Positions 5,697 to 7,339 of a stretch of 64,000 nt of DNA are shown one piece after another (positions within the stretch are counted from its first letter, which is position 1; the number at the start of each line of letters is the position of its first letter). Source of the DNA: Alicyclobacillus contaminans DSM 17975 (GTDB lineage Bacteria > Bacillota > Bacilli > Alicyclobacillales > Alicyclobacillaceae); the NCBI RefSeq assembly GCF_000429525.1, contig NZ_AUCA01000001.1, positions 1-64,000 on the forward strand, read 5' to 3'. A program made the translations under genes and the position numbers. A model generated the notes under the pieces. The model did no database searches. It was not told the origin of the DNA and saw only the letters and a list, made by a program, of their open reading frames with translations.

Positions 5697-5785
5697 TTCC
5701 ACATGAACAGGGCAAACCAGTGGAAACGCTGGGACGCAAAGCCACGGGTCTAAGGGTAAAACCTATGATCGCCGGGTTGCCACGA
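5697..5785 (+). promoter_or_regulatory. c-di-GMP-I (GEMM-I) riboswitch
   Basis: The conserved GEMM-I core is present in order: AACAGGGCAAACC, a short P2 stem capped by GAAA, GGGACGCAAAGCC, the CTAAGG element, and the closing CGGGTTGCC. The last segment pairs with GGCAAACC to make P1. This class binds cyclic di-GMP and controls transcription or translation of the downstream gene. The gene that follows encodes an EAL-domain c-di-GMP phosphodiesterase, so the RNA probably provides feedback on the nucleotide it senses. A terminator follows at once, indicating transcriptional control. Confidence 0.93.
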
Positions 5786-5796
5786 CATACCTTTTG

Positions 5797-5823
5797 GGCG
5801 ATCCGTGCACGGGTTGCCTTTTT
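5797..5823 (+). terminator. Riboswitch expression-platform terminator
   Basis: GGCGATCCG and CGGGTTGCC form a nine-pair stem (two G-U pairs) with a TGCA loop, followed by TTTTT. Its 3' arm repeats the CGGGTTGCC of the aptamer P1 closing strand. The aptamer's 5' P1 strand could therefore pair with either copy, which gives a simple means of switching. Whether ligand turns expression on or off cannot be read from sequence alone. Confidence 0.82.
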
Positions 5824-5840: not shown

Positions 5841-5944
5841 GGGTGAGGGGAATGGTAGACAAGAAGAATATCACGCTGTCGAAAAATCGGGTGAGGGGTG
5901 GGGGAAATGAGCAAGAAGCATATCACACTTGCGAATGGAAAAAT
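5841..5944 (+). repeat. Imperfect direct duplication of the gene start region
   Basis: Two copies, about 5841-5887 and 5889-5944, share GGGTGAGGGG, an ATG, CAAGAAG, ATATCAC, CGAA and AAAAAT in the same order. Each copy contains a ribosome binding site and an ATG (5852 and 5907). The encoded peptides start MVDKKNITL and MSKKHITL. The two starts lie in different frames relative to the G tract that follows. Confidence 0.7.
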
Positions 5945-5974
5945 AACCCTTCCGGGGGGGGGGGGGGGGTATAA
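5852..5974 (+). CDS. Upstream alternative start ORF entering the G tract
   Basis: The ATG at 5852 follows GAGGGGA and opens a 40-codon frame that runs without a stop through the 16-G tract. It ends at the TAA directly after it. As written it would make only a short peptide ending in Gly-Gly-Gly-Gly-Gly-Val. If the tract lost one G or gained two, this frame would continue into the EAL domain. It is therefore either a leader peptide or an alternative start for the phosphodiesterase. Its first residues resemble those of the main start. Confidence 0.45.
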   Translation: MVDKKNITLSKNRVRGGGNEQEAYHTCEWKNNPSGGGGGV

Positions 5975-6881
5975 TCCTCCAATAAACCCAATTTATGATA
6001 TTTCTATTCAAAGAAGTGTTGAATGGATACTTGAGCAAGGACGCATTGACACCGTCTACCATCCGATTGTAGATCACGCCAACAGCACGGTTTTCGGACA
6101 TGAGGTTCTCAGCCGTCCCCACTACGAAGGGCAACGGATTCCACCGGATGTCTGGTTTCACGCCGCTTATGAAAGCGGCCTGGCCGTGGATGCGGATTTG
6201 CTTTCGCTCTCCACCGGGGTGAAAGATTTCAGTGCATTGCCCCACGGAATCGCTTCCACCCCTCTGTTTGTCAATGTGATGCCCAACAGCCTTTCCGACA
6301 AGTCTTTTCTTCGGGGGGTTGAAATCCTCTTTGAAGAGGGATATCGCCAACCGGATGAATTGGTTTTCGAAGTCATTGAGCATGTGTCGTACGATCCGAA
6401 GTCATTGGCCCAATGCATCAAGCCCCTGCGCTCACTCGGAATTCGCATTGCCTTGGACGACTTCGGGATGGGGAATGCCAATCTCGCTGCGCTCGTTCAG
6501 CTTGAGCCGGACTTCATCAAAGTGGATCGTTCGCTGATTCAGGGAATTTCCACGTCATCCGCAAAGCAACGACTGTTGTCCCACCTGGTGGATTATATGG
6601 ATTCGGGTAATTCGGTGATTGCGGAGGGTGTGGAAACCCACGACGACTTGCTCGCTGTTCAGGCATCCGGCGTGAATCTGAGCCAAGGATACTACTGGAC
6701 CGCTCCCATGCCCATCACGAATCTCACCCTGTTGACGGAGGCTATAGAGAAGGCGAGAGACGAACTGGTCGCTTGTGTGCAAGAGAAAAACGGTGTGTTG
6801 ACAGACGACGAAGTGGTGCAGAAGAGTCAACAACTGGACTTCCTGATTATACAATATTGCCATTTGGGCCTCGGGATGTAG
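5907..6881 (+). CDS. EAL-domain c-di-GMP phosphodiesterase, G-tract interrupted
   Basis: About 324 residues. After a short N-terminus with five consecutive glycines (residues 17-21, encoded by the G16 tract) comes a single EAL domain. The catalytic signatures are all present: GHEVLSRP (the EAL motif as EVL), FVNVMP, ELVFEVIEH, IALDDFGMGNANL, PDFIKVDRS, VIAEGVET and QGYYW. It should hydrolyse c-di-GMP to pGpG in the cytoplasm; no membrane segment or sensor domain is seen. The ATG at 5907 follows a G-rich ribosome binding site. A c-di-GMP-I riboswitch and terminator precede it, and a second start region lies at 5852. Changing the tract by one or two bases would truncate this frame soon after the tract. 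Confidence 0.9.
   Translation: MSKKHITLANGKITLPGGGGGYNPPINPIYDISIQRSVEWILEQGRIDTVYHPIVDHANSTVFGHEVLSRPHYEGQRIPPDVWFHAAYESGLAVDADLLSLSTGVKDFSALPHGIASTPLFVNVMPNSLSDKSFLRGVEILFEEGYRQPDELVFEVIEHVSYDPKSLAQCIKPLRSLGIRIALDDFGMGNANLAALVQLEPDFIKVDRSLIQGISTSSAKQRLLSHLVDYMDSGNSVIAEGVETHDDLLAVQASGVNLSQGYYWTAPMPITNLTLLTEAIEKARDELVACVQEKNGVLTDDEVVQKSQQLDFLIIQYCHLGLGM
5954..5969 (+). repeat. Homopolymer of 16 G inside the EAL coding sequence
   Basis: Sixteen consecutive G bases run from the last base of a Pro codon through five Gly codons. Long G tracts inside genes are classic sites of slipped-strand length change and on/off phase variation in other bacteria. The exact length could also be an assembly estimate. 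A TATAAT follows directly. Confidence 0.85.
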
Positions 6882-7033: not shown

Positions 7034-7339
7034 TCAGATCTTGAAATGCTGGATCAGTTGCTGCAGTTCATCGGCCATCCGCGCCAACTCCGTGGCGGAC
7101 CCCGAAATTTCCTCCATGGACGCGAGCGGTTCCTCAGTGGCCGCGGAGACGTTCTGCGTTCCCGCGGCGTTGTTTTCCGCAATCTCCGCGATGAATCGGA
7201 TGGATTTCACCACTTCTGCGCTGCGCTCGGACAGCTTCTGGACAGCGGAAGAAACTTCTTGAATCTGGCTCGCAACGTGGGTCGCTCCCTCAATGATGCG
7301 ACGACTGGACCGGGCGATGGAATGGGTGAAATACAACAC
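7034..7339 (-). pseudogene. C-terminal fragment of a methyl-accepting chemotaxis protein
   Basis: About 95 residues match the extreme C-terminal part of an MCP signalling domain: IQEVSSAVQKLSERSAEVVKSI, FIAEIAENNAAGTQNVSAATEE, and a final ELARMADELQQLIQHFKI. A full receptor has 400-650 residues with membrane segments, sensor, HAMP and CheA/CheW hairpin; none of that remains. The first residues of the open frame (MLYFTHSI) already belong to the neighbouring glycosidase remnant on the other strand. The fragment has no promoter or ribosome binding site and is a deletion remnant. Confidence 0.85.

Follow-up and report, generated by a model that had tools for sequence, protein, structure and literature searches.

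A long G tract as a probable, conserved phase-variation site of riboswitch-controlled EAL and EAL–Spo0E-like genes in Alicyclobacillaceae and their relatives

A run of 16 G residues near the start of an EAL gene of Alicyclobacillus contaminans DSM 17975 is very probably an old, conserved phase-variation (contingency) site that would switch the gene by slippage. The gene lies in the window, the stretch of 64,000 nucleotides of contig NZ_AUCA01000001.1 that was analyzed. An earlier note on this DNA had pointed to the tract and proposed that slippage shifts the frame of the EAL gene. Comparison with related genomes supports a finding broader than that proposal, namely a conserved and apparently repeat-driven switch of riboswitch-controlled EAL genes, mostly EAL–Spo0E, in the Alicyclobacillaceae and their relatives. 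The riboswitch, the terminator, the Spo0E-like domain, a second paralogue with a G16 tract and the conservation were not mentioned in the earlier note. The features of the locus are the following.

5701–5784, + strand: c-di-GMP-I riboswitch aptamer (Rfam RF01051, 83.7 bits with a gathering score of 35, E 2.8e-16)
5796–5819, + strand: intrinsic terminator hairpin with a T run behind it and a 5′ arm that is also able to pair with the 3′ end of the aptamer
5852–5974, + strand: leader open reading frame from an additional, duplicated start (MVDKKNITLSKN...), with a TAA stop right after the tract
5890–5898, + strand: Shine-Dalgarno-like stretch for ATG 5907 (sequence GGTGAGGGG; duplex energy -7.8 kcal/mol)
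5907–6881, + strand: EAL–Spo0E-like gene, in frame (ON) at 16 G according to the open reading frame, the domains and the frame analysis
5954–5969, + strand: G16 tract read from the sequence, the proposed slippage site
5970–5974, + strand: conserved TATAA directly 3′ of the tract, an immediate stop in one wrong frame
6030–6707, + strand: EAL phosphodiesterase domain (PF00563, E 3.8e-51; PDB relatives include 8arv, 6hq4 and 3sy8)
6732–6860, + strand: Spo0E-like domain with the motif KSQQLD (PF09388, E 8.2e-11)

The 16 G residues are present in the sequence where the earlier note had placed them, and they encode five glycines near the N-terminus, as it had stated, when translation is read from ATG 5907. 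The product across the tract is P-GGGGG-YNPP: the first G ends a proline codon and the remaining 15 form the glycine codons, with TATAAT adjoining the 3′ end of the run. The intact EAL domain described in that note does follow the tract in the same frame. Runs of nine G have 9 overlapping matches in the window, compared with 1.2 expected from shuffles, and 8 of the 9 come from the G16 tract; a chance origin of the run was ruled out by its conservation among relatives. The start region (5852–5974) looks duplicated, with the units ATG-GTAGACAAGAAGAATATCAC and ATG-AGCAAGAAGCATATCAC and a ribosome site at each. The two starts, ATG 5852 and ATG 5907, are in different frames ahead of the tract, and the leader frame from ATG 5852 would enter the EAL frame if the tract length were a multiple of three. 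Downstream, a convergent minus-strand open reading frame (7034–7339) resembles, by eye, the C-terminal part of a methyl-accepting chemotaxis protein.

The proposed mechanism starts with slipped-strand mispairing during replication, which would add or remove G residues and thereby bring the EAL–Spo0E frame into line with the start codons or out of it. An in-frame tract would allow synthesis of a c-di-GMP phosphodiesterase that may be a Spo0A~P phosphatase too; with an out-of-frame tract, translation would end within a few codons. The window allele, with 16 G, is predicted to be ON. Since the two starts are in different frames, the window gene should be ON at 16 or 19 G (from ATG 5907) and at 15 or 18 G (from ATG 5852), and OFF only at 14 or 17 G. 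The c-di-GMP-I riboswitch and its terminator would act above this frame switch.

The domains of the protein are consistent with these activities. PF00563 was present in all 27 members of an alignment of relatives, and E45, N102, E134, D163, D164, K184, E219 and Q239, which we take to be the catalytic residues of EAL enzymes, were invariant in all of them, in agreement with the claim that all catalytic signatures are there. The EAL fold and these residues make the window product a likely c-di-GMP phosphodiesterase, with hydrolysis as the predicted reaction. PF09388 was found in 19 of the 27 members, including the window protein. The SQELD-type motif is characteristic of the Spo0E-like domain, and Bacillus Spo0E proteins dephosphorylate Spo0A~P. 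The EAL–Spo0E-like protein is thus predicted perhaps to be a Spo0A~P phosphatase as well, and because the Spo0E-like domain is on the same protein, the frame switch may also touch sporulation. A search for EAL–Spo0E fusions, with subscription papers mostly outside its reach, found no literature report, and the combination of Spo0E, EAL domain and c-di-GMP gave a single paper, on Vibrio, in the literature searched.

Long G runs are rare in the source genome. The whole 3.27 Mb contain only five runs of at least 12 G, and two of these, both of exactly 16, occupy the same site, immediately 5′ of the EAL domain, in two EAL paralogues that share about 50% identity. Both paralogues are preceded by a c-di-GMP-I riboswitch. 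The second paralogue (contig C6) has no Spo0E-like end in its open frame, and a third riboswitch–EAL gene (contig C25) has no G run. The remaining three runs (contigs C7, C19 and C22) are not in EAL genes. By eye, the G13 run on C7 (L020) is inside an apparently broken MFS transporter, and the G12 run on C19 (L021) and the G16 run on C22 (L022) are apparently intergenic.

The EAL part alone, with the tract excluded, was used as the query in a search of 41 family genomes including G000. Thirty-two of them had an EAL match at E 1e-25 or better, and many of the best matches, from many genera, bear a G run just upstream although the run was absent from the query. Riboswitch–EAL genes with a run of 12 to 29 G at the same place and with similar flanks are found in two families of the order and in a further family that does not belong to it. 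The flanks, C-rich on the 5′ side and TATAA plus a CC box on the 3′ side, are conserved and also code for a conserved Y-K/N-x-P peptide. Among 59 genomes of the order, 14 contain the pattern G10-TAWAA, at 16 places in total (none for the reversed control), and all 16 belong to EAL genes, one of them on a contig that stops 26 nt past the tract and was assigned by its flank, which is the start of an EAL-bearing contig. In a class sample of 398 genomes, 2 of the 359 outside the order have the pattern, while the reversed control gave three matches in two genomes of the same sample. Both matches outside the order are in one genus of another family, with runs of 25 and 29, in genes that have the riboswitch and the EAL domain and encode C-termini alignable with the Spo0E-like ones. 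Among the family genomes, 12 are assembled in four contigs or fewer; they contain 12 runs of 12 G or more, of which 8 are in riboswitch–EAL tract genes. The same sequence as in A. acidocaldarius DSM 446 (G003) is found over 2.9 kb in its plasmid pAACI02 (NC_013207). Searches for a wider distribution found no other strains of the DSM 446 plasmid in PLSDB, no match in the viral contigs searched, and only EAL genes of Aquabacterium, 26–27% identical, in a wider contig collection. The gene also occurs in relatives in which the run is short, broken or absent (G019, G020, G038, G000c and G017b); the tract is therefore not required. Genome G040 (L074, L077) has two copies of the tract, each G21 with the same flanks, about 4.5 kb apart, and both of its EAL copies are broken by frameshifts.

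The ON or OFF state was assessed at 17 loci with a run of 12 G or more, an intact frame after the tract and available sequence before it; the two G040 pseudogene copies, seven loci at contig edges and the loci with short, broken or no runs were left out. The start at each locus was the one with the strongest Shine-Dalgarno pairing, so that the start codons are predicted. Nine of the 17 genes were in frame and eight out of frame, counts in which individual ON/OFF calls may be wrong because consensus lengths of long homopolymers are error-prone. The uncertain rows are G000b, with a weak start site, and G017, which is ON only from a GTG and OFF from its ATG. In the eight out-of-frame genes, the 100 nt upstream contain no in-frame ATG, GTG or TTG from which an open path leads on. 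If the frame had to be kept, with 5% error, eight failures would have P 6e-7, and nine genes in frame are slightly above the random one third (P 0.08). At 15 intact loci with tracts of at least 12, the wrong frames reach a stop 0 to 25 codons past the tract. The length class needed for the ON state differs among loci, indicating that the start side has shifted too. The window gene, G017 and G058a have two starts in two frames, and only one length class is OFF.

Length differences are seen between very close relatives. G004 (G20) and G016 (G12) share 99.1% identity across 310 EAL codons and have nearly the same leader; G017 has 18 G and G019 a broken run, GGGTGGGCGG, that is in frame, and the two are 98.9% identical over 301 codons; G097 (25 G, in frame) and G078 (29 G, out of frame) are of the same genus. 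The earlier note had named uniform length among relatives as a result that would speak against switching; what was found is a range of 12 to 29, with G12 and G20 at 99.1% identity. In draft genome G014, contig C53 ends 26 nt past a G11 run and contig C102 starts with at least G13 and the same downstream flank, which could reflect either true heterogeneity or the assembly. In draft genomes, seven tract loci are at the edge of a contig (G010, G012, G014 twice, G021, G022 and G057), a distribution that is suggestive only. In G010, contig C70 (L046) ends in C49 where its relatives have the G run; this C49 probably arose in assembly. In the type strain A. acidocaldarius DSM 446, with a tract of G21 that is predicted to be OFF, the EAL gene is annotated from a start (L078, 2585) that is 99 nt past the tract and inside the EAL domain; the out-of-frame allele conceals the probable N-terminus.

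The EAL part is under purifying selection. Pairwise dN/dS was 0.18–0.26 in six diverged pairs, among them pairs with one or both alleles out of frame, and 0.51 and 0.72 in two near-identical pairs with very few changes. The decayed exceptions, with frameshifts or an internal stop, are the two copies of G040 and one copy in G032. The genes are thus often out of frame and yet not decaying, as reversible switching predicts. Taken together, the variable length, the 8 out-of-frame genes among 17 and the purifying selection support the frame switch by slippage proposed in the earlier note, and we infer that slippage would occur in culture and alter the phenotype.

Other explanations account for part of these data. 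If RNA polymerase slipped on the G run, every allele would give mRNAs in mixed frames at a fixed low level, with no heritable switch; the selection on EAL in out-of-frame alleles and the drift in length would then both be explained. As the sole cause we hold this transcriptional slippage to be unlikely, because it leaves the runs of 20 to 29 unexplained, although it is inseparable from DNA slippage by sequence alone and both may occur. Much less probable is that the tract is retained as a structural linker for a need of polyglycine. An in-frame tract does give a short glycine run ahead of the EAL domain, but any GGN codon would serve whereas the run consists of G alone, there are EAL paralogues that lack it, and the frame counts, with nearly half of the genes out of frame, led us to reject this reading.

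The conserved flanks, C-rich on one side and TATAA with the CC box on the other, and the TATAAT that follows the window tract could be expected if the G run worked as a nucleic acid (a G-quadruplex, a hairpin with the flanking C runs, or a promoter spacer with TATAA) whose length tunes expression. This is improbable, although somewhat less so than the linker: lengths of 12 to 29 are incompatible with a fixed promoter spacer, and the flanks have a coding role in the Y-K/N-x-P peptide. G16-TATAAT as a promoter spacer was itself rejected, since a promoter scan gave no site across the tract and the lengths are too variable. The least credible account is an assembly or sequencing artefact, which the earlier note had also raised. 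It would fit the seven draft loci at contig edges and the false-looking C49 of G010, but the tract is found in closed genomes, in NC_013207 (pAACI02) and in many genera, so that an artefact is refuted for the existence of the tract while its exact lengths remain provisional. Phase variation by DNA slippage is the reading that we favor.

Transcription of these genes appears to be controlled ahead of the tract. Of the 17 tract loci, 15 have a riboswitch that scores above the gathering threshold (the exceptions are G029 and G058b), and a terminator follows the aptamer on its 3′ side in 20 of 21 loci, that of G039 being weak. At 15 loci, pairing between the 5′ arm of the terminator and the 3′ end of the aptamer had a mean of -17.4 kcal/mol versus -11.8 kcal/mol for shuffled arms. 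When arms were exchanged between loci the mean changed only to -16.3 kcal/mol, and the own arm was stronger in 9 of 15; this small loss indicates that the arms are alike and not privately matched. The pairing points to an arm kept out of the terminator, and to continued transcription, when ligand is absent, and to termination favored by c-di-GMP, a direction that we infer from these structures. If so, c-di-GMP would lower transcription of a phosphodiesterase gene, which amounts to positive feedback. Factors under class I c-di-GMP riboswitches in C. difficile are reported, in the available text of one study, to be down-regulated (PMC9286219). In genome G024 (L036, 2532–2618 on the - strand and 2839–2933 on the + strand; L071), two c-di-GMP-I riboswitches stand back to back, one serving the EAL gene and the other on the opposite strand.

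Repeat-driven phase variation has been studied mostly in host-adapted pathogens and on surface molecules, and the poly-G and poly-C loci of Campylobacter, Neisseria and Helicobacter act mostly on surface structures of such host-adapted bacteria. What is probably switched here is a global second-messenger enzyme that also bears a domain resembling a sporulation phosphatase; its hosts are environmental spore-formers, and the tract has persisted while many genera diverged. The reference genomes of these bacteria are predicted to be often frozen in the OFF state, with A. acidocaldarius DSM 446 as an example. A wider and more tentative reading, possible but rather doubtful at present, is that one slippage event toggles c-di-GMP hydrolysis and Spo0A~P dephosphorylation together, that the riboswitch feedback stabilizes the outcome, and that the locus is an ancient fate switch linking biofilm and motility with bet-hedging in sporulation. 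The tract opens a test of whether random frame switching sets the c-di-GMP level and sporulation decisions. Searches whose scope left out most subscription papers found no report of repeat-driven phase variation of a c-di-GMP phosphodiesterase, and the literature searched held none on phase variation of c-di-GMP genes of Alicyclobacillus or Kyrpidia, or on this tract.

The closest likeness is to PdcB/PdcC of C. difficile, where a c-di-GMP phosphodiesterase is also heritably turned on and off in a spore-forming Firmicute and is tied to riboswitch-read c-di-GMP, sporulation and motility, as far as the available text describes it (PMC9286219). In that system the switch is a promoter segment inverted by recombination, whereas here a coding G run would shift the frame, and the same text makes no mention of a Spo0E-like part. 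A 2025 review, in the portion available, describes phase variation of c-di-GMP phosphodiesterases by inversion of the pdcB/pdcC promoter and by an epigenetic fimbrial switch in E. coli (PMC11868660); the sfa-linked phosphodiesterase of E. coli is alike in being phase variable, but it follows, in that account, the epigenetic switch of a fimbrial operon with no repeat. The mechanism closest to the one proposed here is that of the poly-G and poly-C contingency loci of Campylobacter, Neisseria and Helicobacter, described in the accessible parts of three papers as runs of a single nucleotide, inside or ahead of coding regions, on whose length expression depends (PMC6321876, PMC5953494, PMC2823697). 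The tract differs from these loci in its target, a second-messenger enzyme, in its hosts, environmental Bacilli, and in being often the only long G run of the genome. The aptamer with a downstream terminator is as known for the GEMM-I riboswitch (RF01051); in these genes it is joined to a putative repeat switch in one transcript.
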